A stretch of 25,730 bases of DNA from a virus, in IMG/VR virus record IMGVR_UViG_3300014501_000064, positions 1 to 25,730 of that record; one strand, written 5' to 3'. How positions within the stretch are numbered: the stretch's first letter is position 1; the number at the start of each line of letters is the position of its first letter. The translations under genes and the position numbers were made by a program. The notes under the pieces were generated by a model, which made no database searches, was not told where the DNA came from, and worked only from the letters and a program-made list of their open reading frames with translations. Positions 1-25,087 of this stretch are shown one piece after another.

Positions 1-1030
1 GACAGCGTTCCTACGCTTGGTACGTCAGCTCTTATTGAAATTCTGGTAGCAGCTACCCTTGCTGATAGCGCACCAACTATTGGAACGTTCGCTTTCATTG
101 AAGTTCTGATAGCAGCTGCCCTTGCTGACAACGCACCAACGCTCGGTACGTCAGTTCTCATTGAAGTGTTGGCTGCTGCAGCCCTGCTTGACAATGCACC
201 AACGCTCGGTACTTCAGCTTTTATTGAAGTTCTGGTAGCAGCTGGTGTTGCCGATAGTGTGCCAACGTTTGACAAACCTTTAATTGCCAAAATTATTTCG
301 ACGGCTGGCTTGCTCGACAGCGCGCCAATGCTTGGTGCACCTGTCTTCAACCAGAAAGACGTTTTGATTGGTGGTCTTGCAGACAGCGCGCCAACAATTG
401 CTACTCCTATATTTGCTGAAGTTGGTACTTCAGTTTTTACAGCGACTGCTCGGCTCGACAGCGTTCCGACACTCGGTGCACCAGCTTTCAATCAGGCTGA
501 TGTTCTAGTTGGCGGATTGCTCGACAGCGCGCCAATGCTAGGTACGTCAGCTTTAACCAAAGTTGTTGTTGCAGCTAGTCTGCTCGATGATGTGCCAACA
601 CTAGGTACGTCTTCTCTTATTGAAGTTCTGGTGGCAACTGCCTTCGCTGACAGTGCGGCAATAATAAGCACGCCATCTCTTATTGAAGTTTTGGCTGCTG
701 CTGGTTTGGTTGATACAAATCCTGTATTTGGTACTGTCAAATGCATAGGAGTTCTATCATCTGCCGGTTTGTTCGACAGTGCGGCAACCCTTGGAACGTC
801 AGCTCTCACTGAAGTTCTGGTGGCAACTGCTTTTGCTGACAGTACCCCTACGTTGGAAGCACCGCTTTCAGGAATAAACGTTGGGGCACTATCAGCAATT
901 AATCTTGCTGACAGTGCACCAACGTTTAACGCGCCATTACTTAGACAGCAAAACGTTCTATCGTCCGCCACTCTTGCTGATAGCGCACCAATCATTGATG
1001 TTGCAACGCTTATCCAGCACGTTGATTTGC
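1..1030 (+). repeat. In-frame tandem repeat array, ~63-75 bp units
   Basis: At least 16 consecutive units encode D-S-A-P-T-L-G-T-S-A-L-I-E-V-L-V-A-A-x-L-x or variants. Most are 63 bp (21 codons); some are 66-75 bp through short in-frame insertions. Several units, for example those starting near 1, 64, 127 and 190, remain very similar at the DNA level (shared ggtacgtcagct and attgaagttctggt strings). This suggests recent duplication or gene conversion as well as protein-level constraint. Confidence 0.9.
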
Positions 1031-1443
1031 AAGGAATTGATCTTGATATCGGTGCCCCAATTTTGCCTGCACCGACATTTGAGCAACGAGATATTTTCTT
1101 AGCGATGGTGCTGCAAACGGCGGCTACAATCCTTGATGCGATTGTAATTGCTCAAGCGCAAGTTTTGTTACCATACAGTTTGACTGATTTGTTGTTACCA
1201 TTGGCAACGCCTGAATTAATTGGCGTATCAGATTTCGTAGATGTTGACGGTGAGTCGATAATAATTCCCGATGTATGGATTGCAAATCCTGAATTTTATT
1301 TAGTCTTCATTGAAAACGTCATCGGTAATGAAACTTTACAACCTGCTATAATTGGTCAAAATTTATTCAGTACTGTTATTGCGCAAGAAAATAAATGGCC
1401 TGTCATTATTGGACAAGCCGCACCAATTGGAGTTCTTGAATGA
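1..1443 (+). CDS. Tandem-repeat virion protein, 5' truncated
   Basis: The reading frame is open from the first base of the window, so the true start lies upstream; 480 residues are visible. Residues up to about 350 are a tandem array of at least 16 units of 21-25 residues, each opening with D-S/N-A/V-P-T-L-G-T and followed by a hydrophobic stretch such as ALIEVLVAA. The last ~130 residues are not clearly repeated and end in GQAAPIGVLE. No catalytic motif, signal peptide or membrane helix is evident. It lies just upstream of the neck genes, where P2-like phages encode capsid proteins, so a head decoration or fibre role is possible but inferred. The same motif recurs in other proteins of this window. 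The next gene starts inside its stop codon (ATGA at 1440), so translation is probably coupled. The family is not recognised by name. Confidence 0.8.
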   Translation, partial: DSVPTLGTSALIEILVAATLADSAPTIGTFAFIEVLIAAALADNAPTLGTSVLIEVLAAAALLDNAPTLGTSAFIEVLVAAGVADSVPTFDKPLIAKIISTAGLLDSAPMLGAPVFNQKDVLIGGLADSAPTIATPIFAEVGTSVFTATARLDSVPTLGAPAFNQADVLVGGLLDSAPMLGTSALTKVVVAASLLDDVPTLGTSSLIEVLVATAFADSAAIISTPSLIEVLAAAGLVDTNPVFGTVKCIGVLSSAGLFDSAATLGTSALTEVLVATAFADSTPTLEAPLSGINVGALSAINLADSAPTFNAPLLRQQNVLSSATLADSAPIIDVATLIQHVDLQGIDLDIGAPILPAPTFEQRDIFLAMVLQTAATILDAIVIAQAQVLLPYSLTDLLLPLATPELIGVSDFVDVDGESIIIPDVWIANPEFYLVFIENVIGNETLQPAIIGQNLFSTVIAQENKWPVIIGQAAPIGVLE

Positions 1444-2183
1444 CCACAACCCATATACCGTTTTCATATCCAGTTGGTGATACTTGGGTTATTAATGCCA
1501 TGCTCAATGATAGTGCTGGCAATCCGCTTGATCTGACGACGGCCATATCTATTGATTGGACGCTAACTGATAGCAACAACAACGTTGCTATTGACTTGAA
1601 CCTGAGTTCTGGAATTACGCTAGGGTCTGGCGCTGGAAGTTGTATTATTACAATTCCAGCAACAGTAACTCAAGGTCTCGCCGCTGGCAATTATGTCGAC
1701 AAAGTTGTCGTTGTAATGCCGGGTGATTTTGTTTCTACTCAATTTGCTGGTCCCATTGAAGCTGTTGTGTTCAATGGTACATTATCACCCCAGTTGTCAA
1801 TGTTTCGCCAATGGTTTCCAGAGTTCAGTACCGTTGATGATATTAGCATTAGTCAATCATTGATGGTTGCTGGTTTATGGATTGATCCTTCCAAGTGGTC
1901 AAAAAAAGATTATCCAATGGCAATATTGTATTGGGCAGCTCACTGGACGCAGTTGTTGCAAACCCAATTAGCGACAATGGAAATTGCCGGTACAGGTTCG
2001 ACTGATATTTTTCTGCGACAAGTTCGCATGGGTGAACGATCGTTTAGTTTTCAGCAACGATCAGGTCAGAAACAGGTTGAAGCTATGGCGGCACCTGGTG
2101 AGTCGTTACTTTCACAAACGATTTACGGACAGCTTTTTATTCAGCTTAGGGCTAGAAACATACCTGCTGTGATGGTGGTTTGA
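1440..2183 (+). CDS. Head-tail connector protein, DUF4054-like, with extra N-terminal beta domain
   Basis: A 247-residue protein with two parts. Residues 1 to about 115 look like an immunoglobulin-like or BppU-type beta domain: a start resembling PVGDTWVINAML, the turn DSAGNPLDLTTA, then alternating beta strands. Residues ~120-247 resemble the DUF4054 family of phage connector proteins: FRQWFPEFSTVDD, a helix with a WID element, then AILYWAAHWTQLL, and a C-terminal part with an arginine-rich patch. Proteins of that family sit between portal and tail in the neck. Position directly before the head-closure and terminator candidates agrees. The start is ATG overlapping the upstream stop (ATGA), with GGAG about 8 bases upstream. 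The extra N-terminal domain is unusual for the family as I remember it and could decorate the neck. The DUF4054 assignment is from motif memory only. Confidence 0.65.
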   Translation: MTTTHIPFSYPVGDTWVINAMLNDSAGNPLDLTTAISIDWTLTDSNNNVAIDLNLSSGITLGSGAGSCIITIPATVTQGLAAGNYVDKVVVVMPGDFVSTQFAGPIEAVVFNGTLSPQLSMFRQWFPEFSTVDDISISQSLMVAGLWIDPSKWSKKDYPMAILYWAAHWTQLLQTQLATMEIAGTGSTDIFLRQVRMGERSFSFQQRSGQKQVEAMAAPGESLLSQTIYGQLFIQLRARNIPAVMVV

Positions 2184-2728
2184 TGTCTGTATGGGCCGCC
2201 CAAGAACAACGTCTTGATGCAGTTATTGATCGCTTCTGGGGCGAGCCTGTCGAGCTGCATCCGATGAGTGGTGGTGATGTTTCGGAAGAACCTGTGCCGG
2301 ATAGTACGCGCAATATTGTTTTCAGCACTGCTGTTTATATGCGTCCGGGTTCTGCAGTTACCGGAGAAGGTGGTACTCAAGGTGCAGGATTGTCGTCACA
2401 GATAGTCGAGAACGATACTTGGGCATCTATCGTTGGTGATGTCATTGGCGGTGATGATCCATTTTTTGAAAAAGATGATCGGGTGTATTGGCCTGAACGT
2501 AATGAATGGTGGGCGATTACTTACATTACACCATCGGCTACTAATCGACCGAATATACATCTGGTTCGCTTGAACCCCAACAGTATCATTGTTGGATTGA
2601 TTGGTGCTGAGTTTGATGGCGTGCCACCAATTTTTGATGGTGTAAACGTATATGCTGACAATTTTGCGCTGTCGGGTGCTGCCTTTATAGATAGCTCACC
2701 AATTTTAGATGATGCGGTGGAAACATGA
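2183..2728 (+). CDS. Probable head-closure (stopper) protein with C-terminal repeat tag
   Basis: 181 residues. The chosen ATG overlaps the previous stop (TGATG); an in-frame TTG lies one codon upstream. The middle contains FFEKDDRVYWPERNEWWAIT followed by P-x-x-T-N-R-P-N-I-H-L-V-R-L. That pattern (a K/G-D-R turn, then a tryptophan-rich strand, then an R-x-x-x-x-L-x-R strand) is typical of small beta-barrel head-tail joining proteins. Its position between a DUF4054-like connector and a terminator-like protein supports a neck role. The last ~40 residues do not belong to that fold. They carry two copies of the motif seen in the arrays, EFDGVPPIFDG and FIDSSPILDD. The function is inferred from motif shape and gene order. 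Confidence 0.55.
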   Translation: MSVWAAQEQRLDAVIDRFWGEPVELHPMSGGDVSEEPVPDSTRNIVFSTAVYMRPGSAVTGEGGTQGAGLSSQIVENDTWASIVGDVIGGDDPFFEKDDRVYWPERNEWWAITYITPSATNRPNIHLVRLNPNSIIVGLIGAEFDGVPPIFDGVNVYADNFALSGAAFIDSSPILDDAVET

Positions 2729-3615
2729 GTTTGTTGAGGTCAATAATCAGGCAAACGATGGTCGGAGCGTTGCGCTCCAGGACGTGGGCTGAAGAACGTG
2801 TTTGGGATAGTGATCAAACACCGCTGACGGAAGCTGTCTATGGCAAGACAGCCAAACCGTATATTGTTTGTTACACCGACATTGACGACATCACACCCGT
2901 CACAGGCTTTGCTGAACTGTACAACGGTGAGAACCGCAACCTGAACTTGGTGATGGAAATTGGCGTAGCCAATGCTGTCAAGGGCGCGAACAATAATATC
3001 GTCCTGAATTTTTCGGCGACCGACGAAGGTCTTGAATTTGCCGTTGACGTGGTTGAGACGCAAGCTATTGCGGCGCTGGTCGGTGATCCCACTTCAGAGT
3101 GGGGCAATCTGCTCAAGCAGATGATCCGAAAAGTGCGCCGCATGCCTTCAAGGCGTGGTGGTCAATCAGACAAGGGTGTTCGGTTCGCAGCTCGAAAGAC
3201 AACGCTGGTGGTCAGCACAATTTTTGACATCATACCTGGTGTGAAGCCAGTGCCTGAACATCCCGTTTGGGAGTTCATCAGGTTGGCACGCAGGCACCCC
3301 GAGGTTGGTATGGTCGATAGTGCCAGCGTCATTGAAGCTTTACTGAGCGTTTGTGATGCCCCAACGTGGGAGCAGGCACAGGCCTATCTTGGCTTGTCTT
3401 ATCAAGCTGTCAGGGCGCTCAATCCAGATGGCACACCGTTGCCGTTGCTCTATGGAGAACTGCCACCACTTGCGCGTCAGGATGCGTTCGTTCCGAAGCT
3501 GAGCGATATTGAAGTTGTCGGCAGAGACGGTTTCACCATCCTCTTGGATGCCGAAAATCTTGATAACGGCTCACCGATCTTGGCAGCAGGAAGTTACAAT
3601 GTGGACGGCATTTGA
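2725..3615 (+). CDS. Probable tail terminator/completion protein
   Basis: 296 residues, starting at an ATG that overlaps the upstream stop (ATGA). The first ~70 residues read SLLRSIIRQTMVGALRSRTW, then a short charged stretch containing ERVWDSDQTPLTE, then strands TAKPYIVCYTD and FAELYNGENRNLNLVMEIGV. This matches the shape of tail terminator or tail-completion proteins, which open with a helix of the type R-x-x-v-x-x-L followed by R-V-x-x-x-x-x-x-P-L. Residues ~70-185 continue the domain. The rest is an extension of unknown function ending in FTILLDAENLDNGSPILAAG, one copy of the window's repeat motif. It lies in the position of P2 gene R. Such a protein would cap the tube and sheath and dock the tail to the head. 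The assignment comes from order and fold pattern, not from a catalytic signature. Confidence 0.5.
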   Translation: MSLLRSIIRQTMVGALRSRTWAEERVWDSDQTPLTEAVYGKTAKPYIVCYTDIDDITPVTGFAELYNGENRNLNLVMEIGVANAVKGANNNIVLNFSATDEGLEFAVDVVETQAIAALVGDPTSEWGNLLKQMIRKVRRMPSRRGGQSDKGVRFAARKTTLVVSTIFDIIPGVKPVPEHPVWEFIRLARRHPEVGMVDSASVIEALLSVCDAPTWEQAQAYLGLSYQAVRALNPDGTPLPLLYGELPPLARQDAFVPKLSDIEVVGRDGFTILLDAENLDNGSPILAAGSYNVDGI

Positions 3616-3706
3616 GATTTACAGAGACATTTGCATGGCAGTTGTCACGTTCTATTTTTGTGTATTCGTTTATGGCTGTTTCATGGGATGGTGGACTAAT
3701 CGATGA
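3599..3706 (+). CDS. Small single-pass membrane peptide
   Basis: A 35-residue reading frame starting at ATG 3599, inside the last codons of the preceding gene. AGGAAG lies about 6 bases upstream, a good ribosome-binding site. Its stop overlaps the next start as ATGA. The sequence is MWTAFEIYRDICMAVVTFYF followed by CVFVYGCFMGWWTNR: one hydrophobic segment (about residues 11-31) with charged residues at both ends, consistent with one transmembrane helix. The tight overlaps at both ends argue for a real translated gene or a translational coupling device. The function is unknown. Tail regions sometimes carry small membrane proteins such as holin- or Rz-like peptides, but nothing here proves that. 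Confidence 0.55.
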   Translation: MWTAFEIYRDICMAVVTFYFCVFVYGCFMGWWTNR

Positions 3707-4317
3707 TTGAAATTACCGTTGATGCCTCAGATCTAATGAAGTGGTCTGCTAACTTCAGCAACATACCAAAGCAGACAAAACCAGCTTTGGCGCGTGCGTT
3801 GAACAGGGTTGGTGAACAAACGGCACGAGGTGCTGCTCAGTTCATTGCCAATCAAGCTGATCTCGATGCCAACGCGGTTTATGAAAAAATAGCTATTACG
3901 CAGGCAACACCAGACAGCCTTGAATGGTCAATGAATTCATCAGCAATATCACCGCCTTCATTGGACTGGTCGAGGCCTTGGGGTGAAAGAGATACCGACA
4001 GTTTCGATCAGGATACCATGGTCAAAGTTGTTACGATGGGTGATGGGGATGTTTGTGAACTTTGTATTCAAGCTGCAGATGATAGCCCTTACACGCTAGC
4101 TGAGGCTTATCAACTCAGACATGGTAGCGGTGGCGATGGTTGTTTGATCCATCAGAATTGTAGATGCGGCCTTGCACCATGGTCTTCCTCGCGTAAGTTG
4201 CCTGTGGTGTTCAACAAGCCCGGTGAAGATATGCCGTCTGGCATGTTCACCCCTGCACAGCTCGGTGAAGCTGTTGTTGATGAACTGAAGGTCTCGTTGT
4301 TTGTAACAGGGAGGTGA
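3703..4317 (+). CDS. Minor tail protein gpZ-like N-terminus joined to Mu F-type cysteine motif
   Basis: 204 residues. The N-terminal part (residues ~20-65: IPKQTKPALARALNRVGEQT, then ARGAAQFIANQ) resembles prophage minor tail protein Z and related tail-completion proteins, whose hallmark is an A-L-x-x-A-L-N-R-x-x helix. The C-terminal part carries D-V-C118-E-L-C121 and, about 30 residues later, H150-Q-N-C153-R-C155. This is the CxxC...HxNCRC signature of the Mu gpF/SPP1 gp7-type minor head domain, presumably a metal-binding knot. The gene lies where P2 carries S (tail completion), directly before the spike gene. It is short for a full gpF protein, so only the cysteine knot is present. The join of the two elements is seen in the sequence; the role in tail or head completion is inferred. 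Coupled to the upstream peptide by ATGA. Confidence 0.6.
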   Translation: MIEITVDASDLMKWSANFSNIPKQTKPALARALNRVGEQTARGAAQFIANQADLDANAVYEKIAITQATPDSLEWSMNSSAISPPSLDWSRPWGERDTDSFDQDTMVKVVTMGDGDVCELCIQAADDSPYTLAEAYQLRHGSGGDGCLIHQNCRCGLAPWSSSRKLPVVFNKPGEDMPSGMFTPAQLGEAVVDELKVSLFVTGR

Positions 4318-4321
4318 TGAA

Positions 4322-5167
4322 ATGTATGACAGGATGTTATTTAATGTAGCTGAAACAGCTCGCCAACATGCGAACTCAGATCGATTAGGTACTGTTCACG
4401 AAATTCAAAAAGACAAGATGCGTGTTGTTCTGGGTATTGATCCTAATGGACAACCTTTTCTTGGTCCTTGGACAGATCATAGCAGCATGCGTGGGGGTAC
4501 TCGTGAACGTGAGTATTATAAAGTTGGACAAAACGTTCGTATGTCGTCATCTGGTGGAGATTTTCAACAATCTACTGTAAGTCCACACGCTCCGAGTAAT
4601 TCGTTTCCAGCACCAGATCATGCAGACCAGTATCTTGATTCTAATGGAGCGCCAACTGCTGTTACCCATCAAATTGGAAATTTATGCATTGCTAAATCAG
4701 TTGGAAAAAATCCCGGTGATCCAGCTGTTCATTCAATGTGGATGGCTAAAGCGCAACAGCAGCCAGCATATGTTGCGTCAACTACAATGTCGACGACAAA
4801 TGCCGGTGCGTCAACAGCAGCAGCACCAGCGCAGCCTGCACCACAACCCGGCACACCAACAATGTCAGTTATAATGACGGATAATGGTTCTAACGGCACC
4901 GGTGGAGGCATTGTTACCAATTATGTTACTCCCAATGGCAATGTTCAGATGTCAGCAGACCAGAACGGTGCTCAATTAATTCATCAAAATAGCAAAGTCA
5001 CAGTGTTAAATAGTCAAATCACCGTGCACGCTGCCAGCGGGGATGTTCATATCAATGCCGCCACCGGAAACGTTCACCTTGATGCCAGTGGAGGAACGGT
5101 TCATGTCGCTGGTTCAAGTATTCAAATGAGCCAAGCACCCACGCTTGCTCCCGATACTAATGCTTAA
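4322..5167 (+). CDS. V: Baseplate spike/assembly protein, P2 gpV / Mu gp45-like
   Basis: 281 residues with a strong ribosome-binding site (GGAGGTGATGAA) before the ATG. Residues ~20-90 form the OB-like domain of this family: RLGTVHEIQKDKMRVVLGID, then P-x-G-Q-P-F-L-G-P-W-T, then YYKVGQNVRMSSSGGDFQQS. The middle (~95-190) is a low-complexity linker rich in Ala, Pro and Gln. The end (~225-275: VTVLNSQITVHAASGDVHIN, then ATGNVHLDASGGTVHVAGSS) is a run of short beta repeats expected of the trimeric needle. In P2 and Mu this protein is the membrane-piercing tip and baseplate hub. The gene starts the V-W-J-I series, as in P2. No iron-binding HxH tip motif is clear at the C-terminus. The symbol follows P2 usage. 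Confidence 0.8.
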   Translation: MYDRMLFNVAETARQHANSDRLGTVHEIQKDKMRVVLGIDPNGQPFLGPWTDHSSMRGGTREREYYKVGQNVRMSSSGGDFQQSTVSPHAPSNSFPAPDHADQYLDSNGAPTAVTHQIGNLCIAKSVGKNPGDPAVHSMWMAKAQQQPAYVASTTMSTTNAGASTAAAPAQPAPQPGTPTMSVIMTDNGSNGTGGGIVTNYVTPNGNVQMSADQNGAQLIHQNSKVTVLNSQITVHAASGDVHINAATGNVHLDASGGTVHVAGSSIQMSQAPTLAPDTNA

Positions 5168-5185
5168 CCTGAAGGAGACTTTCAA

Positions 5186-5413
5186 ATGACTAACGTTTCA
5201 AATCGTCACCGTCGCGCTGCGCTCAAGGCACCGCCAGTTGCGGCTATCCCGCAGGAATACATGATCACTGATCCCAATCATAAGGCTGATCTTCGCGGCG
5301 AGCTTGGTGGCGGCAAAGTTTATGTTCGCGCTGACAAGCAGTACGTTAAACTGACGCAGGCTCAAGCTAAATTTTACCAGGATTCAGGTGCATTGGTTCG
5401 GGTTGTCAGATAA
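5186..5413 (+). CDS. Small hypothetical protein between spike and adhesin genes
   Basis: 75 residues, preceded by an excellent ribosome-binding site (AAGGAGACTTTCAA). The start is basic (SNRHRRAALKAPP). The rest reads as a compact domain, GGGKVYVRADKQYVKLTQAQ followed by AKFYQDSGALVRVVR, with no membrane segment or catalytic motif. Its stop overlaps the start of the next gene by one base (TAATG), suggesting coupled synthesis with the adhesin-like protein. It could be an assembly factor or small baseplate component. I do not recognise the family. Confidence 0.7.
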   Translation: MTNVSNRHRRAALKAPPVAAIPQEYMITDPNHKADLRGELGGGKVYVRADKQYVKLTQAQAKFYQDSGALVRVVR

Positions 5414-7077
5414 TGCCCACGTTTGAACAAAACATTATTGGCAGTCTCGTCAATGAAGGGACAGGGTTGTCCAATATGTTTTTGTTCAATGGCGTACCAC
5501 CTGCATGGCTGACTGTCGGTTTGTCTGTTGTTGATACGAATAATTCGGTGGTTCCAAGTGGGGCAATCGTTGTTGCAATCAACCCTGTGACACCGTTGTT
5601 TCCTACTGATTTTGATGAAAACACGGCGATTTTATTCGACTTGCCTAATCTAAGTTCTTTTGGGACATCGGGACTTTCATCTGGTTTTCCGATTTTGGAA
5701 AGCACGATTTTTCAGTCTTTGCTCGCATCCAATTTTAATGATAGCTCACCAATTTTGGGTAGCCCGATCTTTGCGTCTTTGAGTGCTGTCAACCTTCCTG
5801 ACAGCCCATCAATATTGGGTGCGCCTGTTTTCAACTTCAAGATTGCGTTTGTAGCAGTAAATTTCTATGATAGTTCGCCAATGAATATATCGAGCTATCC
5901 TTACTTCAACGAATGCATTTCGGGTAGTACAGCCGCACCAATTCTAGTTGGTAGCCCAATTTTTGATGATCACCATCTTCATACTACATTTTTCCTGATC
6001 ATCAGCGCACCAATTTTAGGTAGCCCGATCTTCAAATCTATGCAGGCTGCCAGTTTTACCGACAGTGCACCAATTTTTGATAGTAAACATCTTCATATTT
6101 CTCTGACCCCAGATTCTCTTAATGACAGTGTGCCAATTTTGGGTAACTCGCCGATATCATCTCTGGAAGCATTTGCTCTAAATGACAGTTCAGCAATTGT
6201 GGGTAGTCCTATTTTTAATTCTAAAGATCATTTGACAGCAACCAATCTTCTAGACAGTGCACCAACTTTAAATAACCCAAGCGTTGTTGTGGATCATTTG
6301 ACAGCAACCAATCTTCTAGACAGTGCACCAACTTTAAATAGCCCAAGCGTTGTTTTGAATCTTGTTGTTTCTAACGTCGGCGGTACTGTAACCACTGTTG
6401 GTTCAAATACCGTTATCACGTTCAACGGTAGTGGCTCAATTACCCCGAACAAAGCGTTCACTGCATCATATCTTGTGGTAGCAGGAGGTGGCGGTAGCGG
6501 TGTTATTGCCAATGGCGGCGGTGGCGGTGCTGGTGGATTGCTCGCTGGTTCATCAACAATCAGCAGCGGTACCACGACAATAACAGTTGGCTCGGGCGGT
6601 GCTGCAGGCAGTAATGGTTCTAATTCAGTTCTTGGTGTGATTGCTACTGCTGTTGGTGGAGGTAGTGGTGGTAGTGGCAATAGTAATGGCGTCGCTGGTG
6701 GTTCAGGTGGTGGTGGCGGCAATGGCACCACATACGGCGCTGCAGGTACTGGCGGACAAGGCAATTATGGTGGTAACAACGGACTCAACAGTAGCCCCGA
6801 TTGGGTTGCCGGTGGTGGTGGTGGCGCTGGCGCAGCTGGTATTCCTTCATCTGGCGGCATTGGATTGGCATCATCAATAACCGGAACATCCATCTATTAT
6901 GCTGGTGGTGGTGGTGGTGGTCAGTCTACTGATCCATCGGCTGGCGGCTTGGGTGGTGGCGGCGCTGGTGGTCCAGCAGGTTCTTCTGGGACAGCTAATA
7001 CTGGTGGTGGTGGTGGTGGTAACGATTCTAGTGGTGGTTCTGGCGTCGTAATTATTAGCTTCGTCACCATTCAATAA
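5413..7077 (+). CDS. Repeat plus polyglycine tail adhesin/fibre-tip candidate
   Basis: 554 residues in three parts. Residues 1-~95 are a beta-rich head. Residues ~95-315 are about ten units around D-S-x-P-I-L-G-S-P-I-F, the same motif as the array at the left end; the last two units are an almost exact 66-bp DNA duplication. Residues ~330-554 open with SNVGGTVTTVGSNTVITFNG and SYLVVAGGGGSG, then a long region of glycine runs (GGGGGAGGLL, GGGGGGNDSSGGSG), closing with VVIISFVTIQ. This resembles the glycine-rich domain of tail proteins and the polyglycine sandwich of T-even-type gp38 tip adhesins, where glycine helices present variable receptor-binding loops. A receptor-binding role is inferred from this architecture. 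Its location between V and W is not the usual P2 fibre position. Confidence 0.65.
   Translation: MPTFEQNIIGSLVNEGTGLSNMFLFNGVPPAWLTVGLSVVDTNNSVVPSGAIVVAINPVTPLFPTDFDENTAILFDLPNLSSFGTSGLSSGFPILESTIFQSLLASNFNDSSPILGSPIFASLSAVNLPDSPSILGAPVFNFKIAFVAVNFYDSSPMNISSYPYFNECISGSTAAPILVGSPIFDDHHLHTTFFLIISAPILGSPIFKSMQAASFTDSAPIFDSKHLHISLTPDSLNDSVPILGNSPISSLEAFALNDSSAIVGSPIFNSKDHLTATNLLDSAPTLNNPSVVVDHLTATNLLDSAPTLNSPSVVLNLVVSNVGGTVTTVGSNTVITFNGSGSITPNKAFTASYLVVAGGGGSGVIANGGGGGAGGLLAGSSTISSGTTTITVGSGGAAGSNGSNSVLGVIATAVGGGSGGSGNSNGVAGGSGGGGGNGTTYGAAGTGGQGNYGGNNGLNSSPDWVAGGGGGAGAAGIPSSGGIGLASSITGTSIYYAGGGGGGQSTDPSAGGLGGGGAGGPAGSSGTANTGGGGGGNDSSGGSGVVIISFVTIQ
5695..6357 (+). repeat. Degenerate DSxPILGSPIF repeats
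   Basis: About ten in-frame units of the D-S-S/A-P-I-L-G-S-P-I-F type lie within the adhesin gene, spaced 20-30 codons apart. They are far more diverged from each other than the units at 1-1030, except for the final pair. The consensus prefers I-L-G-S-P-I-F over the T-L-G-T-S-A-L form of the left-hand array. Confidence 0.85.
6226..6357 (+). repeat. Near-perfect 66-bp tandem duplication
   Basis: Bases 6226-6291 and 6292-6357 are direct tandem copies of 66 bp (22 codons) differing at two positions (aataacccaa against aatagcccaa, and gttgttgtg against gttgttttg). The reading frame is preserved. This looks like a recent slippage or unequal-recombination event. Confidence 0.93.
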
Positions 7078-7088
7078 GGGATTGTAGA

Positions 7089-7745
7089 ATGTCTGAACCT
7101 GTTGTTCCTCCAACTTTTACAGTAACAGTCAGTTCACCATTAGACGGTTCACCGGCTGTTGGGGATAATATTCAATTCTCCCAGTCGACAAGTGTAGTTG
7201 CTGTACCATCTGCAACCGCAACGGCTTTAGCTGCACTGGCTAATGCAATGTGGCCTGATTTAATTAATCAGCAGACACAAATTTCGCCACCACGTAATGG
7301 TATGGATCGATCAACCGGACAGTTGCTGCAAGGTTGGGACCACGTTGAGCAATCGATGGAAATAATTTTCGAAACGCCGTTTCACCAACGGGTGTTGCGC
7401 AGATGGGTTGGCAGTTTCGTCCCGTCAATCTTGGGCGACAATGTTGTGCCGCGTGTGATCATGCGTTTTTTTTGGGCAATTGCATCGGCGCTCGATATGT
7501 GGGAGCCGGACTATCGGATCAAGCAAGTTTACTTTATGGGTAACACCTTGAACCAATGGTCGCCAGCAACTTTGGACGCTGTGAGTTTGATCAGGCAGGG
7601 ACAAGTTATTTTTCGTAATGAAGGTGTTTATTATCCAAGAGGTCATCTTGGAAATTTCACTCCTTACGAACAACGTCAATTTGGTTTAGTTGGGCGCGGT
7701 GGTCAATTATGGGACGTTGTCAGCCCAACATCAACATCGCAGTGA
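7089..7745 (+). CDS. W: Baseplate wedge protein, P2 gpW / T4 gp25-like
   Basis: 218 residues, with AAGGGA ahead of the ATG. Residues ~70-135 match the gpW/gp25 family pattern: NGMDRSTGQLLQGWDHVEQS, then MEIIFETPFHQRVLRRWVGS. The hallmarks are a G-M-D-R-x-T-G strand, a Q-S-I/M helix, a T-P-x-x-x-R turn and a Y/V-G-S ending. P2 gpW is about 115 residues. Here an N-terminal beta segment (residues 1-45) and a C-terminal tail of ~60 residues are additional; the tail includes GVYYPRGHLGNFTPYEQRQF. The protein would join the inner baseplate ring and help nucleate the sheath. The gene order V-W-J-I supports the call. Confidence 0.8.
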   Translation: MSEPVVPPTFTVTVSSPLDGSPAVGDNIQFSQSTSVVAVPSATATALAALANAMWPDLINQQTQISPPRNGMDRSTGQLLQGWDHVEQSMEIIFETPFHQRVLRRWVGSFVPSILGDNVVPRVIMRFFWAIASALDMWEPDYRIKQVYFMGNTLNQWSPATLDAVSLIRQGQVIFRNEGVYYPRGHLGNFTPYEQRQFGLVGRGGQLWDVVSPTSTSQ

Positions 7746-7752
7746 GGGTGCC

Positions 7753-8784: not shown

Positions 8785-10202
8785 TTGATCTCACCAGCAC
8801 CGCACCAGTAAACGATCCTGAATATGGAACGACAGACCCTGTTTGGCCGGAAATTCTGGCGACAGCTGGTTCTGATGTCATCTATCGCGCCGCTGCTGGA
8901 CTTGAGAAGGCGATGGCCGATGTTGATGCCGGTCGGCTGATTTCAACTTATGCCGAGTTGGTTTCTGATCAATGGGATGCCTATTCAATCTCTTATCGCA
9001 ATCTGCCTTATCTTGCATGGGCGAGCGGATGTAATCTATGGGAAGAGAGCTGGTCAGAGGGGTTCAAACGTTATTGGGTTGCTAACCAGATGACGTTTCA
9101 ATCCCAACGCGGTTCGCTGCTCGGCATCAGCAATTTCGTCAATGCTGTTGGAGCTGAAGTTCTCAGCGCAGTGGTACCACCGGCGTCATTCTATCCTAAC
9201 CCATCTCAGACACCGGCTCAGACGGCGGCCTACGTTGCACGCTTTCCACAGCTGCGCCTCTATCCTTATGCGCCGACACCCGTTGAGCCTTATCTTTGCT
9301 TCCCTGGCAATTTTGTTGATCCTGTAACTAACGAAAAGGTATTCAACAAAAACGGCTGCTTTCTTGGTCCGCTACAAATGTTCTATCCAACTAATTACAA
9401 CGCCGGTGGACAATACTTTCAAGATGCGGTGTTGTGGGACCAGGGCGTATCGACTAACCTGACAGTGCAACAATGGACGCAAGTTGATGTCGGTACACAA
9501 CAGGATACGCTCTACACTCAAGTGACAATGCCGGGAATATCAGATGATCATTTCTTCATGGGTCGATCCGGAAAATATTTCCTGCCTGCGGGTCATCCGG
9601 TCTCACAGAACAAATATGGAATTTTTCTGGGTGCTCTATATAACACCGCCGATCACATTGCCCTTGTTCCGCAGAATGTAGATTTAACGCTGTTCGAAGC
9701 CAAAGCAATTTATCAAACGGTGTTGCCGGGTTTGCAGCCGCTTGAAGTGACACCTGAGAATGTGGCGTCTGTTCATCAATCACGGATAACCGAATTCTAT
9801 TGCGGTCAATGTCTTGCTGGAAAGTTTCAACCACCTAGTAATGCGTGGCAGTTCATGTACCAGCTTTGGTACCTGTTTGATCCGACAGTGGTGCCTGCTA
9901 ACAAGAAGGCTAGTTGCTTCATGGGACAGGCACGATTTGGTATTGGAGCATATACCGCTGAACTGAAGATCGCAGCTTACGGTATATGGCCTCGCTTCTA
10001 TTTGCGAGCTGGCGGCTTTCTCAATGGTTTTCTGCCGCCAAAGAACACTAGTGTAACTGACAAAATCCGACGCGCTGTCACAGCTTCGATGGCATTACGC
10101 GATACGGTCGGTATTGATACCTACGTCATGAGAGTTGTTCAAATTTCCGATGCCGTTTTAGCCGATGGAAATACGTGGGTTGGCATGTACATAGAATCGT
10201 AG
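8781..10202 (+). CDS. I: Baseplate/tail protein I-like with long C-terminal extension
   Basis: The best start is GTG 8781, overlapping the J stop (GTGA), giving 473 residues; an upstream in-frame start at 8733 would overlap J by ~50 bases. Residues ~45-135 match P2 gpI: YRNLPYLAWASGCNLWEESW, then S-E-G-F-K-R-Y-W-V-A-N-Q, then Q-R-G-S-L-L-G-I-S-N-F-V-N-A-V-G. These are the LP-LAW, W-x-x-x-x-R and h-G-T elements of that family. P2 gpI is about 176 residues. Here ~330 extra residues follow, rich in aromatic residues and with no motif I recognise. In P2, gpI joins the tail fibre to the wedge, so the extension may form a built-in fibre socket or an additional baseplate domain. That is inference. 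Confidence 0.75.
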   Translation: MIDLTSTAPVNDPEYGTTDPVWPEILATAGSDVIYRAAAGLEKAMADVDAGRLISTYAELVSDQWDAYSISYRNLPYLAWASGCNLWEESWSEGFKRYWVANQMTFQSQRGSLLGISNFVNAVGAEVLSAVVPPASFYPNPSQTPAQTAAYVARFPQLRLYPYAPTPVEPYLCFPGNFVDPVTNEKVFNKNGCFLGPLQMFYPTNYNAGGQYFQDAVLWDQGVSTNLTVQQWTQVDVGTQQDTLYTQVTMPGISDDHFFMGRSGKYFLPAGHPVSQNKYGIFLGALYNTADHIALVPQNVDLTLFEAKAIYQTVLPGLQPLEVTPENVASVHQSRITEFYCGQCLAGKFQPPSNAWQFMYQLWYLFDPTVVPANKKASCFMGQARFGIGAYTAELKIAAYGIWPRFYLRAGGFLNGFLPPKNTSVTDKIRRAVTASMALRDTVGIDTYVMRVVQISDAVLADGNTWVGMYIES

Positions 10203-10276
10203 GTTGGCGAATACATTCAGAGCTAAAATGCGCAATTTATGCGCAGTGATGGCAATAACTCAAAGGAGCGTTAACA
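10203..10276. other. Intergenic gap with short stem-loop
   Basis: This 74-base gap, one of the larger ones in the window, holds TGCGCA (10229-10234), ATTTA, then TGCGCA (10240-10245). It can pair as a 6-bp stem with a 5-base loop. No U-run follows, so an intrinsic terminator is unlikely. CAAAGGAGCG just before the next ATG is the ribosome-binding site. The stem could be an mRNA processing or stability element, or chance. Confidence 0.35.
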
Positions 10277-12799
10277 ATGGCTGAAAATTCTATTATTTTT
10301 CGGGACAATCAAGAGACACAGGCTGATGATTTTAACAACATGCAGTCTTGGATTGGCCAGTCTATTGATGATGTCGTCGGTGATGCCATTTGTGGTGGCA
10401 ACGCCTATACCGGTTTAACAATAACCAAAACCGCAGCGACCCAAATTACGGTACAGGTTGGTCGCTTGTATTGGGCTGGCGCAGTTTACGTGTTGCCTGC
10501 AATTACGGTGCTCGACTTCTACAATAACTTGCCTGTGACGCAGAACCGTCAGTGTGCGGTTGTTGCATGGGGCACGACCGTTCAGCAGGATATCGAGCCG
10601 CGTAACTTTATCATTGATGCTGATACTGGTCAGTCACAGCCGCAATCGGTTGCGATGGAATCCTCGCGTGTACTTAATCTGGCTATTGTTCCGGGTGTAG
10701 AGAATCCAAATCCATCTTATCCGTCAATTTCAGCAACGACCTTGCTGGTCGGTTACGTGTTGCTATCACCGACTGGTGTTGTAAGTTTTCAACAAGTAAC
10801 TTCCACTCAGCTTGATAATTTGACCGCGATTGCTGATGCCGTTATGGGATTACAATCATTTGTTAACCAAATTGCTGGTTCGGTTTCGACGTTGACAACG
10901 GCGTTGGCAGGTTTGTCAGCACAAATGGGCAATTACACGCTGAAGAGTGATTTTGTAAGTTTGGTAACGTTGGTTAATCAAATTTTGGCGAAGGTCAATC
11001 AACCAGCTGCATATCTATGGTATGGCACTGACAATTTTCTTGATGCAACACAGTCACAAACGACTGCGACTGTCGAAGGAGCTTACAACGCTACAATCAA
11101 TGAAGGTTTGCGTTTTCCCGGCAGTGGCAGTGGTTCGGCGAGCTATGCGATGATTCAGTTGTTGAATCCGTCAGACCCTCTTGCAGCTATTGGCACTGAT
11201 AATTTCATGTTACCAACGCCGTCTGGTGCTCGTATTCGCATGGACTGTTCGTTTACAACATTACCGTGGATTGCTGATCCCCTTCTTAATTATGCTTATT
11301 ATGTGCAGGCACTTCGTCTATTGACGCGATCGCGCTATCGTTTCGCTTGTGGCCCGCAATATATGCCGTGCCCTGCATCTCAGGTTTGGTGGTATCAAGC
11401 TCAGCTTGATCCGACGACAAAAATTTTGTCGTTCATTACTGAAACATGGGAAACTTCTGAATGGGCTGACATTGTGCAGCATGATACTGAAGACGATCCT
11501 GATTGGCCGCAACATCAGTTTTTGCGTAACCAATATCTATGGAGAGACAATGTTGATTTGCCTTACTGGTCCAAGATCAACACCAATCTAAATCATAGCG
11601 GAAATCACCTCGGACAATCGTTCTTGAACCAGCAAGACGGTTGGCTCAATGGCGTTATGGTTTATATGAACGCTCAATATTATCAGCCATTGACTGTTTC
11701 AATTGTGGCATGCGATGCGACGGGAACGCCTGATCCAACACAGTTGATCATGGAAGTTGATTTGACTGGCTCCAATATACAATCGTATATGACCACACCA
11801 ATGCAAGTTGGTGATATTTCTGGAGGCGGAGGACCAATTTATACCACATATCAAGCTGATACTGAAAATACGTCTATGGCTCAAATACCAGGTTTCGTTC
11901 CATTTGGACCTATGGTTACGACTTTAGCTGGGTACACCGCCGCTTATAATATTCCAGTTTATGTTTACCCATTACGAATTCCAATTCCGCCGACGTTCTT
12001 GTCTGGTGGAAAACAATATGCCGTAATCTTCACATCAACCTACGGACATGTTTTCAATATCAGTTCTGACCCAAGTTGTTTTGCAGTACATCAGGGCGCA
12101 TACTGGTATTCAACTGGTGCTGGTTTGGCGCAATGGACAACTGGCCTCAAGTCATTACGCTTCCAGTTGTTCTATTCAGTCTGGAACCAATGGCAGGGTC
12201 AGAGCACATCGACGCCTGGTGGGCCATGCATTATCAATTGTCAACCGCTGTCGAAAGCAGGAGGCATTGGAAGTCTTGAAGTGTTGGCTGAAGCAATTAT
12301 TCCAGCAAGTACATCCTTGATTTATCAGATACAAGTTGGCGGTACGTGGATGGATTTTACCTCTGCTCCCAATAGTCCGTCATTTGCAGCGGCACCCGCG
12401 TTGCTGCCGTTCCGTATTTGCTTCAACGGTACGACTGATTTGATGCCGGGCGTCAGTCTGACAAATAGTCAAATTTCATTGTTTGGTGCTACTACCGGAA
12501 CGTTGCATCACATTGGTGACCTCGTTACGCTTGGCTCCCCATGCAGCAGTGTGAAAATTGTTTGCAATGTCACTGGTTTTGTATCGGCACATCAAACGTT
12601 GACGGCTAGCCTCTATTACGGATCGACTTACGATACCACTTCAACTGCGGCTGATGTAATCAATGCTGATGGTACGTTGACGAGGACTTGGACGTTCACG
12701 GTAGCTATCACTGGCACCTTCGAAGTATTGCTAGATGGCACACAAGATGGCACCGGTGATCCGTATATTGTCTCCCAGAAAATTACATTTGCGGAGTAA
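10277..12799 (+). CDS. Large tail fibre/baseplate-associated structural protein
   Basis: 840 residues with a strong ribosome-binding site (AAAGGAGCG). The N-terminus reads AENSIIFRDNQETQADDFNN MQSW, then A-Y-T-G-L-T-I-T-K-T-A-A-T-Q-I-T-V-Q-V-G-R-L-Y-W. It resembles the attachment domain of phage tail proteins that put a G-x-x-V-T builder segment after a short entry helix. Residues ~180-230 (LDNLTAIADAVMGLQSFVNQ, then IAGSVSTLTTALAGL) form a likely coiled coil. The remainder is beta-rich with many aromatic and Asn/Gly turns and contains a segment with VYPLRIPIPPTFLSGGKQYA. No enzymatic motif is visible. It occupies the position of P2 gene H (fibre), right after I. I interpret it as the main fibre or a baseplate-attached plate protein; its exact role is unknown. 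Confidence 0.6.
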   Translation: MAENSIIFRDNQETQADDFNNMQSWIGQSIDDVVGDAICGGNAYTGLTITKTAATQITVQVGRLYWAGAVYVLPAITVLDFYNNLPVTQNRQCAVVAWGTTVQQDIEPRNFIIDADTGQSQPQSVAMESSRVLNLAIVPGVENPNPSYPSISATTLLVGYVLLSPTGVVSFQQVTSTQLDNLTAIADAVMGLQSFVNQIAGSVSTLTTALAGLSAQMGNYTLKSDFVSLVTLVNQILAKVNQPAAYLWYGTDNFLDATQSQTTATVEGAYNATINEGLRFPGSGSGSASYAMIQLLNPSDPLAAIGTDNFMLPTPSGARIRMDCSFTTLPWIADPLLNYAYYVQALRLLTRSRYRFACGPQYMPCPASQVWWYQAQLDPTTKILSFITETWETSEWADIVQHDTEDDPDWPQHQFLRNQYLWRDNVDLPYWSKINTNLNHSGNHLGQSFLNQQDGWLNGVMVYMNAQYYQPLTVSIVACDATGTPDPTQLIMEVDLTGSNIQSYMTTPMQVGDISGGGGPIYTTYQADTENTSMAQIPGFVPFGPMVTTLAGYTAAYNIPVYVYPLRIPIPPTFLSGGKQYAVIFTSTYGHVFNISSDPSCFAVHQGAYWYSTGAGLAQWTTGLKSLRFQLFYSVWNQWQGQSTSTPGGPCIINCQPLSKAGGIGSLEVLAEAIIPASTSLIYQIQVGGTWMDFTSAPNSPSFAAAPALLPFRICFNGTTDLMPGVSLTNSQISLFGATTGTLHHIGDLVTLGSPCSSVKIVCNVTGFVSAHQTLTASLYYGSTYDTTSTAADVINADGTLTRTWTFTVAITGTFEVLLDGTQDGTGDPYIVSQKITFAE

Positions 12800-12804
12800 T
12801 AAAT

Positions 12805-12990
12805 ATGGCTGACATTGTTGCATATAAAATCACAATGAAAGCACCAGTCTTTGCAGCTGGTGTGCAATTTCTGCCGGGACCGGGGCGCAGCTATCGCGTC
12901 TCGGTAGCGACCTATGATTTAACGTTGCCTGATGGCACACCATTTAAAGACAAGTGTGCAACGGTTCAACCTATTCCAGCGGTGAGCTAA
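12805..12990 (+). CDS. Small hypothetical protein in the fibre block
   Basis: 61 residues, five bases after the previous stop, with GGAG in the end of that gene as ribosome-binding site. The sequence is compact and beta-rich: VAYKITMKAPVFAAGVQFLP, then GRSYRVSVATYDLTLPDGTP and FKDKCATVQPIPAVS. No membrane segment or known motif is visible. Strong start signals, tight spacing and retention within a fibre block suggest a real virion or assembly protein. Not recognised. Confidence 0.65.
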   Translation: MADIVAYKITMKAPVFAAGVQFLPGPGRSYRVSVATYDLTLPDGTPFKDKCATVQPIPAVS

Positions 12991-12991
12991 C

Positions 12992-14227
12992 ATGGCGCAA
13001 GCAATTCAAATTTCTGATTTGACGGTTCCGGTCTCGCAGACACCGCTTGATATGGATTTTTTCAATACCCGATTTACGGAAATCGGGAACGCCATTAATG
13101 TTGCAAGTGCTCGTATGGATGCATACGACTCAACCGTAAACACCTTGGTGTCAGCTGGCCTTACACAGCTGAATACGGTGATGGGACCTTATCTTGCTAA
13201 TATCCAAGCTGCTGCACAGCTTGGTTTTTTGACGATAGCAGCCACTGGCGTATCGGTTGCTTTAACCCAGGGAAATAGTGCAACATTTGTAGCGACGAGC
13301 GGTGGACCATTATTTACACCAACGGTTTTCTTGTTGGCATCTGACAATACTGATGCAACAAATTGGGGTTTGCTTCAGGTCACGGAATGGACTGTAGCCA
13401 GCAATACATTGGTCGCCAATGTAGTCTATAGCACTAAAATTCAAGCTTCAAATAACTGGTCTATCTCGGCAAATGCCGCAGTTATTCCAGTGATACAAGC
13501 ATTGGTGACGTTGGCTCAAAATGCATCTGCATCGGCTGTAGACGCTTACGCCAGTGTCGAATCGGCAATATCAGCACTGGAAGGTTTGGCTGCTGCAATT
13601 TCGGCAGGCCCTGTAGCATCCGTTTGCGGTTATACAGGTACTGTCACCTTGATAACAAGTGACATCGGCGGCCTGACTGACGCTCTCGCCACCAAGGCGT
13701 CTCTGACGGCTTTAAGTAATGGTCTAGCCACCACGCAACCAAGCAACACGCTACTATCGTCATTAGCTGGTCTGACATTGACGGCCAACCAATTGATATA
13801 TGCTACCAGTTCAACAACCTTAGCTGCAGCATCATTGACAACGTTTGGAGCATCCCTACTCGCTCTATCCAACGCGACCGCTGTTCTGAGCGCCATCGGT
13901 GCCTCGCCGATCAATCTTCTGTTCAACGCACAAACCGGCACCACTTACACAATGCTGACAACTGACAATGCCCTTGCAGTCAGGTGCACCAATGGCTCAG
14001 CGATCACGGTGACGTTGCCAAATAATTTGCCTGTTGGCTGGAACTGTCTGGTTGAACAAGGTGGCGCTGGACAAGTGGCGTTCAGTGCTGCCAGTGGCGC
14101 TACTATTAACAATCATAACGGTCAGTATAAAATTGTTGGTCAATATGCCACGGTCGGTCTTTATGTTCGATCAAATGTTGATGGTGTCAGTGCAATTTAT
14201 AATCTGTCAGGGAGTACAGCGTTTTGA
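12992..14227 (+). CDS. Tail fibre protein
   Basis: 411 residues. The N-terminus (IQISDLTVPVSQTPLDMDFF, then NTRFTEIGNAINVASARMDA) looks helical and may mediate attachment or trimerisation. Residues ~165-200 (LAQNASASAVDAYASVESAI) are alanine-rich and coiled-coil-like. Residues ~205-235 carry ASVCGYTGTVTLITSDIGGL followed by TDALATKASL. This is close to the V-x-S-V-x-G-x-T-G-x-V-x-L-x-x-x-D-V-G-G-L element common in tail fibre shafts. The end (TTYTMLTTDNALAVRCTNGS, then VTLPNNLPVGWNCLVEQGGA) resembles the beta head domain found in many fibres. It is very likely structural and surface exposed. The stop overlaps the TTG start of the propeller gene (TTGA), so the two may be made in fixed ratio. 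Confidence 0.7.
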   Translation: MAQAIQISDLTVPVSQTPLDMDFFNTRFTEIGNAINVASARMDAYDSTVNTLVSAGLTQLNTVMGPYLANIQAAAQLGFLTIAATGVSVALTQGNSATFVATSGGPLFTPTVFLLASDNTDATNWGLLQVTEWTVASNTLVANVVYSTKIQASNNWSISANAAVIPVIQALVTLAQNASASAVDAYASVESAISALEGLAAAISAGPVASVCGYTGTVTLITSDIGGLTDALATKASLTALSNGLATTQPSNTLLSSLAGLTLTANQLIYATSSTTLAAASLTTFGASLLALSNATAVLSAIGASPINLLFNAQTGTTYTMLTTDNALAVRCTNGSAITVTLPNNLPVGWNCLVEQGGAGQVAFSAASGATINNHNGQYKIVGQYATVGLYVRSNVDGVSAIYNLSGSTAF

Positions 14228-16218
14228 ACGTAGCTTCCAGAATAGCTATGCTGGGTTCATGTTCTGCCAACTTAATGGCTACGCCTCTTGTTGACAGTGG
14301 TGCATTGGAAGATAGCCCGCTCTTTGCTAACAATTACATGTTGTTGGGTGTATGCGGTAGTAACACTTATACTTCAATCGATAACGGTGTGACTTGGGTT
14401 ACCCATACTTCTACGTTAAGTTATGGCGCTACTAGTTTAGGTTGGAATGGTTCAGTATTTTATGCATTTTATTCATCGTATGGGCAAGCCATTTCAGCAA
14501 CTGGTATTGGTGGATCAATCTATACATTTTCTTATGGACATAATGCAATAGCTTCGAACGGTTCAATCTTTTGTTCAGTAAATGGCTCAACTCCATATTG
14601 TCAAACATCTTCAAATAACGGAATTAGTTGGACCAATCAATCACTGCCTACAGGTTATTGGTTAGATATTGTTTGGACAGGTTCGTTGTTTTATGCCGTC
14701 GGTGATGCGTGTGCTGCCAGTTCTCCAGACGGAATTACCTGGACTTCTCACTCTCTTGTACTTGATTGGTCCAGCATTGCTTATAATGGTTCAACATTTT
14801 GTGTTGTTTATAACACTGTTGGTCAGACTTATGCGACAGCTTATTCGACAGACGGTGTTAGTTGGTATGGCAGCGTTGGACTTTCAAATCAAATAGCTTG
14901 GGAAAAAATTGCATGGAACGGGTCAGTATTTTGTGCAGTCGGTTATTATAGCAGCCTTGGTTATTGCGCAATTTCACAAGATGGAATCAATTGGACAAAA
15001 CCTTGTGTAATAAATGCAACTATGAATATCACTCCGAAAGGACTGGTGTGGAATGGTAAAGTTTTTTGTGTAGTATCAAGTAGTGGTATATTTACTTCTA
15101 CGGACGGGCTTAACTGGATCGCAACATCAGCACCGACTGTTAGTTATACAGCCATAAATTCTACTTTTGTTTCCAGCGGAGGCACCCCACCAACCTATGT
15201 TTTTGAAAATGCGTGGACAACGCCTGCCTTGATGAACGGTTCTACTATTGCCGCATACATGTGGAGTATAGCTGTCAATGCAGCTGGGCTATTCGTTGCG
15301 GTTGGTTATAACGGCAGCAGTTATCCACTCTATGCAACATCATCCAATGGTCAGACGTGGGCAACGCCTGCCTTGATGAATGGATCTACTGTTTTTGCAG
15401 CCATGTGGAGTATAGCTGTCAATACAGCTGGGCTATTCGTTGCGGTTGGTTATAACGGCAGTGGTTATCCAGTTACAGCATCATCTTCTAATGGTTCGAC
15501 ATGGACAACGCCGACTGTCATTCCTTCGTCTAACGCTTATACAAATTTGGGTGGTATAGCTGTCAATGCAGCTGGACTGTTCATTGCAGTTGGTTACAAC
15601 AGCAGCTATTATCCATTGTATGCAACATCATCCGATGGCTCGACGTGGACAACGCCTGCCTTGATGAACGGTTCTAATGTTGTAGCATTAATGACTTCTG
15701 TTGCTGTCAATGCAGCTGGGCTGTTCGTTGCAGTTGGTTATAACGGCAGCAGTTATCCACTCTATACAATATCATCCAATGGTCAGACGTGGGCAACGCC
15801 TGCCTTGATGAATGGATCTACTGTTGCTGCAACCATGACTTCTGTTGCTGTTAATAGCGCTGGCCTGTTCGTTGCAGTTGGTTATAACGGCAGTGGTTAT
15901 CCACTTTATGCAACGTCAGCCAATGGCTCGACGTGGACAACGCCTGCCTTGATGAATGGATCTACTGTTGCTGTAACAATGAAAGATATAACCGTTGATT
16001 TATTAACTGGCCTGTTCATTGCGGTTGGTTATAACGGCAGTGATCAATCAGTTTACGCAACATCATTCAATGGCTCGACGTGGACAACGCCTGCCTTGAT
16101 GAATGGATCTACTGTTGCCGTACTTACGAGAGGGGTTGCGGTTAATTCAGCCCATCTGTTTGTTGCAGTTGGTGAGGATAATTCAACCAATTATCCACTT
16201 TATGCTACTGGACAATAA
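14224..16218 (+). CDS. Double beta-propeller (Asp-box/BNR-like) tail adhesin
   Basis: 664 residues. The proposed start is TTG 14224 overlapping the fibre stop (TTGA), with GGGAG about 10 bases upstream; an ATG at 14248 lacks such a site. Residues 21-40 include SGALEDSPLFANN, a diverged copy of the window's repeat motif. Residues ~40-325 contain about six or seven diverged propeller blades marked by Asp-box-like turns: SIDNGVTW (51-58), SPDGITW, STDGVSW, SQDGINW, STDGLNW. Residues ~331-664 are seven highly similar 48-49 residue blades of the form W-T-T-P-A-L-M-N-G-S, eight variable residues, then IAVNAAGLFVAVGYNGSSYP and LYATSSNGST. Propellers of this kind in tailspikes and sialidases bind or cut glycans. 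I see no sialidase RIP motif or catalytic triad, so binding is more likely. The assignment to host recognition is inference from the fibre neighbourhood. Confidence 0.7.
   Translation: MNVASRIAMLGSCSANLMATPLVDSGALEDSPLFANNYMLLGVCGSNTYTSIDNGVTWVTHTSTLSYGATSLGWNGSVFYAFYSSYGQAISATGIGGSIYTFSYGHNAIASNGSIFCSVNGSTPYCQTSSNNGISWTNQSLPTGYWLDIVWTGSLFYAVGDACAASSPDGITWTSHSLVLDWSSIAYNGSTFCVVYNTVGQTYATAYSTDGVSWYGSVGLSNQIAWEKIAWNGSVFCAVGYYSSLGYCAISQDGINWTKPCVINATMNITPKGLVWNGKVFCVVSSSGIFTSTDGLNWIATSAPTVSYTAINSTFVSSGGTPPTYVFENAWTTPALMNGSTIAAYMWSIAVNAAGLFVAVGYNGSSYPLYATSSNGQTWATPALMNGSTVFAAMWSIAVNTAGLFVAVGYNGSGYPVTASSSNGSTWTTPTVIPSSNAYTNLGGIAVNAAGLFIAVGYNSSYYPLYATSSDGSTWTTPALMNGSNVVALMTSVAVNAAGLFVAVGYNGSSYPLYTISSNGQTWATPALMNGSTVAATMTSVAVNSAGLFVAVGYNGSGYPLYATSANGSTWTTPALMNGSTVAVTMKDITVDLLTGLFIAVGYNGSDQSVYATSFNGSTWTTPALMNGSTVAVLTRGVAVNSAHLFVAVGEDNSTNYPLYATGQ
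15214..16215 (+). repeat. Seven tandem 144-147 bp propeller-blade repeats
   Basis: Units begin with TGG codons at 15214, 15358, 15502, 15646, 15790, 15934 and 16081. The spacing is 144 bp except the sixth unit, which is 147 bp. Long blocks such as acaacgcctgccttgatgaa and gttggttataacggcag are almost unchanged between most units. Unit 3 is the most diverged. Differences concentrate just after N-G-S in each unit. Confidence 0.93.
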
Positions 16219-24688: not shown

Positions 24689-25087
24689 ATGGCTGCTCAG
24701 CTTGAAACCATCTCTATCGATGCTGGCCTCACTGGTCTGCATACCAACGTCACACACATCACTGTGTGTGCGGCTGAACCGACGACCTATGCTCTTGCAA
24801 CGCTTGGTTCTGGTTCGACCACTGGTGCTTTGCTCGGCTACAACTCGTTTGGTGCAGGCAGTGCTTTCGGTGCGCCCGGTACCAGCAGCACCTCGTTGCG
24901 GGCCGTATCGTCAGCGGCGGTCACCGCTGGCACCATTACGACCAGTGGCACCGCTGCGTGGTGGGCTGCAGTTGACGAAACCGGATCGAACCTCTATGCG
25001 CATGGTTCGCTTTCGGCAACGCAGGTTGTGACGGCAGGAAATACGTTTTCTTTGGCGTCCTTTAATATCTCAATTCCCCAGCATTAA
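24689..25087 (+). CDS. Probable small virion protein
   Basis: 132 residues with an excellent ribosome-binding site (AAAGGAGACTTACT). It is rich in Ala, Thr, Ser and Gly. The N-terminus is ETISIDAGLTGLHTNVTHIT; the C-terminal half is VTAGTITTSGTAAWWAAVDE, then Y-A-H-G-S-L-S-A-T-Q-V-V-T-A-G-N-T-F-S-L. The latter looks like the x-G-x-x-x-x-x-W-x-x-x-x-D-x-x-G-x-x-L-x-x-x-x-L element of small beta-sandwich virion proteins seen in phage genomes. The exact role is unknown. A decoration or fibre-associated protein is plausible from composition. Base composition is slightly richer in G+C than its left neighbours. Confidence 0.6.
   Translation: MAAQLETISIDAGLTGLHTNVTHITVCAAEPTTYALATLGSGSTTGALLGYNSFGAGSAFGAPGTSSTSLRAVSSAAVTAGTITTSGTAAWWAAVDETGSNLYAHGSLSATQVVTAGNTFSLASFNISIPQH

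Follow-up and report, generated by a model that had tools for sequence, protein, structure and literature searches.

By its sequence, the short motif DSxPxLGxPxF that recurs in the virion proteins of this phage is one unit of a widespread phage repeat of 20-25 residues. The repeat family is apparently uncatalogued; no entry for it was found in Pfam, PHROGs, NCBIfam or PDB, and the repeat strings were not found in print in the literature searched. The window, meaning the whole stretch of 25,730 nucleotides analyzed here, encodes two proteins built around tandem arrays of the unit and a head-closure candidate that carries lone units. The best overall explanation, which we hold with slightly more belief than doubt, is that the arrays are the shafts of virion appendages made together with a small companion protein, and that the lone units are their anchors.

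Organization of the virion module

The window, a viral fragment of 25.7 kb from IMG/VR, contains the virion module of a phage with a contractile tail. It encodes array 1, a DUF4054 connector, the head-closure and terminator candidates, a tail-completion protein, a spike, array 2, gp25, gpJ, gpI, fibres, sheath, tube, tape measure and hub (Table 1). The names head closure and terminator are based on synteny and a weak sequence relation, not on structure. A similar gene order is found in Bradyrhizobium phage BDU-MI-1, Aurantimonas phage AmM-1, Paracoccus phage Pyei1 and Microcystis phage Mae-JY30. Close relatives of the window phage did not emerge when array 1, the terminator and the sheath served as queries in viral scans.

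The C-terminal extension of the head-closure candidate is missing in relatives, and that of the terminator candidate is either absent from its relatives or not shared by them. The extra N-terminal domain of the connector is ~110 aa long, and the BDU-MI-1 counterpart is seemingly too short to have it. At 15212-16118 the propeller protein contains a 144-nt repeat in 6.3 tandem copies that are 79% alike. A small HNH-like endonuclease candidate, recognized by eye, follows the companion gene at the contig end (25195-25674).

Table 1. Positions of the array, connector, neck, propeller and companion genes and of the lone unit copies in the window
Feature	Position	Strand	Remarks
Array-1 protein	1..1443	+	5' end beyond contig; clear units to ~base 1095, degenerate units beyond
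Connector	1440..2183	+	C-terminal DUF4054 domain, extra N-terminal domain (phrog_1084)
Head-closure candidate	2180..2728	+	Named by synteny; C-terminal extension of ~45 aa with two unit copies
Unit copy 1, head-closure candidate (EFDGVPPIFDG; core GVPPIFDG)	2618..2641	+	Array-2 DNA matrix
Unit copy 2, head-closure candidate (FIDSSPILDD; core DSSPILDD)	2690..2713	+	Protein profile and DNA matrix; secure
Tail-terminator candidate	2725..3615	+	phrog_12983, named by synteny; extended C-terminus
Probable unit copy, terminator candidate, near C-terminus (NGSPILAA)	3565..3588	+	Second-best DNA site
Tail-completion/neck protein	3703..4317	+	phrog_27
Array-2 protein	5413..7077	+	N-terminal region, array at 5665-6361, Gly-rich tip domain at ~6442-7062
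BNR propeller protein	14224..16218		Doubtful unit-like site near start
Doubtful unit-like site, propeller start	14293..14331	+	Fourth-best DNA site, array-2 matrix
Companion protein	24689..25087	+	Homologues near array gene elsewhere; distant relative of Sf14 neck whisker

The tandem arrays

The two arrays that the initial annotation had placed at 1-1030 and 5695-6357 are real. The array-1 protein has about 16-18 units of 20-25 aa each, beginning at base 1, and the array-2 protein has about 12 units with a Gly_rich_2 domain behind them. Array 2 ends 11 bases upstream of gp25. The DNA shows clear periodicity in places, 63 nt at 13-243 and 66 nt at 6226-6361. Two adjacent array-2 units (6226-6357) have 97% DNA identity over a fresh 66-nt duplication, and this duplication is recent.

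The minus strand opposite array 1 (window 3-995) has extended open stretches that translate into a similar repeat, as in contigs L006, L007 and L016. The codons are nearly self-complementary, and GAPTVGAP therefore reads as GAPTVGAP on the other strand.

The arrays are rather likely to be shafts of virion appendages. This spacer or shaft reading follows from their setting: an N-terminal domain precedes them, a tip comes after them, and appendage genes are their neighbours. AlphaFold2 models of the arrays were of low confidence (pLDDT 58 and 54) and matched no solved fold, and to that extent the shaft reading is unproven; the strand pattern per unit was similar between both repeat types in these low-confidence models.

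The initial annotation had also suggested a surface-decoration or glycan-binding element. A repeat that serves for adhesion or glycan binding across the virion, in the manner of phage Ig-like domains, would account for the several carriers, the position at protein ends and the many copies, as well as for the glycine-rich domain at the end of array 2, a domain type that some phages have in their receptor-binding tips. Units of 20-25 aa, however, are too short to form an independent domain, and no lectin or Ig match was found in Pfam, PHROGs, NCBIfam or PDB. No Ig-like profile matched the repeat, nor did any Pfam leucine-rich repeat of the kind expected for BspA-type proteins. Decoration is thus an improbable role, and glycan binding in particular is not supported.

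A repeat family in other phages

The initial annotation mentioned GAPVLG-type repeats in other phage proteins. Related repeats were verified in viral contigs: a DNA pattern for GAPxxGxP arrays retrieved contigs with 23-residue repeats, and the family consensus is TGAPTVGTPALxQxHxLTATGI with a period of 22-23. A profile was built from 74 units of unrelated phages, with the window sequence excluded. Among the 25 window proteins it ranked array 1 first, with 45.9 bits (maximum of 16.1 in 300 shuffles), and array 2 second, with 17.0 bits (shuffle maximum 9.7); the single copies were not detected by it. A broader family profile retained array 1 (49.0 bits, shuffles up to 16.9) and did not recognize array 2 (11.7 bits, shuffles up to 17.1). 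Unmasked tblastn aligned array 1 with contig L016 at E 2e-23; E-values of the repeat profiles are inflated by the repeat. The link between array 2 and array 1 comes mainly from common DNA-level units and from the place of array 2. Array 1 very probably belongs to the TGAP-type family, and array 2 probably does.

Named carriers of the family are gp57 of Roseobacter phage CRP-6 and gp11 of Octadecabacter Antarctic DB virus 2, and further arrays are found in IMG/VR contigs (among L005-L019 and L081-L158). In Microcystis phage Mae-JY22 a divergent array of 22-residue units was read by eye from a weak match (E 0.03). The family arrays adjoin portal, adaptor or tail-fibre genes and, in relatives of the window phage, lie upstream of gp25. 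The DB virus 2 array protein (gp11; L065 7065-8588) is annotated as ribonuclease E, which is probably a misannotation.

Low-complexity-filtered BLAST of phages with array 1, array 2 or a typed consensus gave no match, and it appears that the filtering hides arrays; they were detected by unmasked tblastn and HMMs. A genome scan matched 109 stretches, none of which was confirmed as an array, and a DNA pattern scan of GTDB genomes found only short GAPxxGAP low-complexity runs. The sole yield from 385 genomes in the class of a Rhodobacter genome was one genome with leucine-rich repeats, which matched the repeat profile by period alone and was rejected, as was a bovine virome contig found in the same way by BLAST.

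The lone units

According to the initial annotation the motif is shared by five virion proteins. Sequence comparison makes three of these secure carriers, namely the two array proteins and the head-closure candidate; the terminator probably carries a copy, and a copy in the propeller protein is doubtful, the weakest of the four lone sites.

The single copies were compared with a protein profile built only from the arrays of the window. FIDSSPILDD, the second head-closure copy, scored 12.7 bits, a value reached in 0/600 shuffled protein sets; the other single copies were individually at or near chance. EFDGVPPIFDG, proposed together with it, was not significant alone with protein profiles. Nor was the terminator copy, NLDNGSPILAAG, at the end of its ORF (-0.3 bits, with 28/600 shuffles of that protein reaching the same). 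The propeller copy was at chance and was not even the best site within its own protein. A clean copy at that place is not supported; the matching register (DSGALEDSPLF) starts at 14293, 18 nt upstream of the one first proposed. Local alignment of the protein ends was noisy and did not discriminate.

A DNA matrix of array 2 was run over both strands. The best four non-array sites were 2690, 3565, 2618 and 14293, all of them in frame. One such hit alone is unremarkable, as it arises in 9-12% of shuffles. A second hit of 15.2, however, was seen in only 0.5% of codon shuffles, and third and fourth hits of 14.4 in 0/400. The joint occurrence of four in-frame hits therefore means that some of the copies are real, without saying which; it also supports the five-carrier claim jointly, and the rank of the terminator site lends that copy its probable status. 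Like the head-closure copies, the terminator copy is found within the C-terminal extension of its protein. When units of both arrays went into the matrix, these four sites ranked 1, 2, 4 and 5, the third being 6544 in the Gly-rich domain.

Composition and chance could be blamed for the likeness among the lone copies, given that head-closure copy 1 and the terminator and propeller copies are at or near chance with protein profiles and that the end alignments are noisy. The 0/600 shuffles for head-closure copy 2 and the 0/400 codon shuffles of the joint test speak against this, and as a general account it is very improbable; it is refuted for head-closure copy 2 and is a fair reading of the propeller copy.

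The lone units may instead be passive by-products of recombination or copying between neighbouring genes, tolerated without function, the arrays still being fibre shafts. FIDSSPILDD shares 17 identical bases with an array-2 unit and head-closure copy 1 shares 14 with an array unit; this closeness in DNA, the fresh duplication within array 2 and the rarity of lone units elsewhere all agree with such an origin. Against it, the two head-closure copies are kept in frame and are separated by 72 nt, one unit period; the terminator copy has kept its SPIL core despite divergence in DNA; and the C-terminal position is seen again in a second phage contig, L090. We regard the by-product origin as a serious minority possibility.

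In L090, independently of the window, a 143-aa non-array protein beside the spike ends in one family unit, which scored 22.3 bits with L090's own array profile as compared to a shuffle maximum of 6.9. L090 was the only one of the non-redundant array loci scanned to have lone units above shuffles outside the array. The relative of this protein in contig L087 resembles, by eye, the C-terminal domain of the array protein; the lone unit of L090 is thus carried by a protein related to a fibre-end domain. The genes gp25 and gpJ are common to the window, L087, L090 and L107, with gpI also present in L087 and L090. In both L087 and L090 an array and its companion lie between the spike and gp25, the same place as array 2 of the window. 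These results support a transferable unit that is present in several virion proteins and sits at their ends.

The companion gene

The companion protein of the window has 36-41% identity to a small gene found near nearly every array when the window proteins are compared with the array loci, and a companion profile made without the window sequence gave it 94.7 bits. It lies ~18 kb from array 2 and is not adjacent to it. Elsewhere the companion is found within about 0-5.5 kb of the array, on the same strand, in every array record with enough flank; the array contigs that have no companion (L005, L007, L017) are either short or truncated at the array. The association also holds in reverse. Three of 50,697 phage records matched the L016 companion by tblastn, and all three also matched the array, the array match of Mae-JY22 being the weak one noted above. 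Among the 27 companion loci that have 6 kb or more downstream, 25 contained a family array, and one of the two exceptions, L101, has a 22-residue repeat that looks family-like by eye. In four phage records that have no companion neighbour (149 kb), no array was found among the best background hits.

The companion profile matched the Sf14 neck structure, PDB 9C39, at E 9e-4 (1.5e-4 with a single companion), and hhalign of the companion with the Sf14-type family gave 91%, E 9e-7. The relation is between the C-terminal half of the companion and a 110-aa neck chain, over ~50-70 residues. We take this chain to be the whisker protein gp31 from the whisker description and the gene order, which in relatives is portal, 167 aa, 111 aa. 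Of 14 companions, 5 were matched by Pfam Gp80 (fibre I of podophage GP4); the one match that was fully inspected was below the cut-off.

Collagen-like GQKG or GIQG repeat proteins, another type of shaft, often occur at companion loci (L127, L133, L138, L155 and CRP-6 gp60, L079 35175-36641).

A model for fibre attachment

In the model that we favour, the tandem arrays would make up the shaft, elongated and probably rich in beta structure, of neck whiskers or baseplate fibres, with the small whisker-like companion encoded together with the shaft proteins. In the window, the putative shaft proteins are array 1, in the connector cluster, and array 2, between the spike and gp25 and with a Gly-rich tip. 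The location signs are mixed: synteny with gp25 points to the baseplate and the lone units point to the neck. Single units on the C-terminus of the head-closure protein (two copies) and probably of the terminator would act as anchors or seeds. A lone unit would pair with an array end or with the companion, as units pair inside the array, and such pairing would tether the fibre to the neck.

The docking of arrays by lone units is a tentative part of this model. Lone units at protein ends would most simply be tags that pair with arrays, and the head-tail joint may be the place where appendages plug in. The narrower idea that the fibre repeat is its own plug, with the C-terminal units of neck-ring proteins pairing with an array end, is somewhat less likely still. 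The docking site for a common partner proposed at the outset has become more plausible through the companion gene and the C-terminal unit of L090, without passing beyond inference. As the primary role of the repeat, that of fibre shaft is the better reading, and docking would come second.

If the plug reading is true, the repeat would amount to a self-matching peptide code, movable between proteins, by which appendages are attached. The window would be a small testable case in which repeat units may pass from one virion protein to another and function as tags for attachment. The repeat family is seemingly unmodelled and is present in many environmental phages, and its conserved companion connects it with a structural relative in a phage neck that has been solved. 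Recognition of the family would aid annotation of genes that are now labelled hypothetical or are probably misnamed.

Comparison with known systems

Ig-like virion domains, for example Hoc (PMC10385173), resemble the window unit in being a module repeated on several surface proteins. They are, however, far larger folded domains, whereas the unit of 20-25 aa matches none of them.

The neck fibres of Anabaena phage A-1(L) are chains of beads, the beads being many copies of a separate protein, gp81 (PMC10966104). Like the proposed window fibres, they are long, repetitive and attached to the neck of a phage with a contractile tail. The likeness drawn here is one of description, and the separate bead protein is unlike the window arrays.

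The whiskers of Shigella phage Sf14 are made of the proteins gp30/gp31 (PDB 9C39; PMC11821841). Their 110-aa neck chain is related to the C-terminal half of the companion; we have seen no array reported for Sf14, and the likeness concerns the companion only.

The TGAP arrays of CRP-6, DB virus 2 and the IMG/VR contigs share with the window a tandem repeat with the same pattern of proline/glycine and hydrophobic residues, the same companion gene and a place in the virion gene cluster. The window differs in having DS in place of TG and periods of 20 to 25 rather than 22-23, and in having two array genes together with lone units on the neck-protein candidates.
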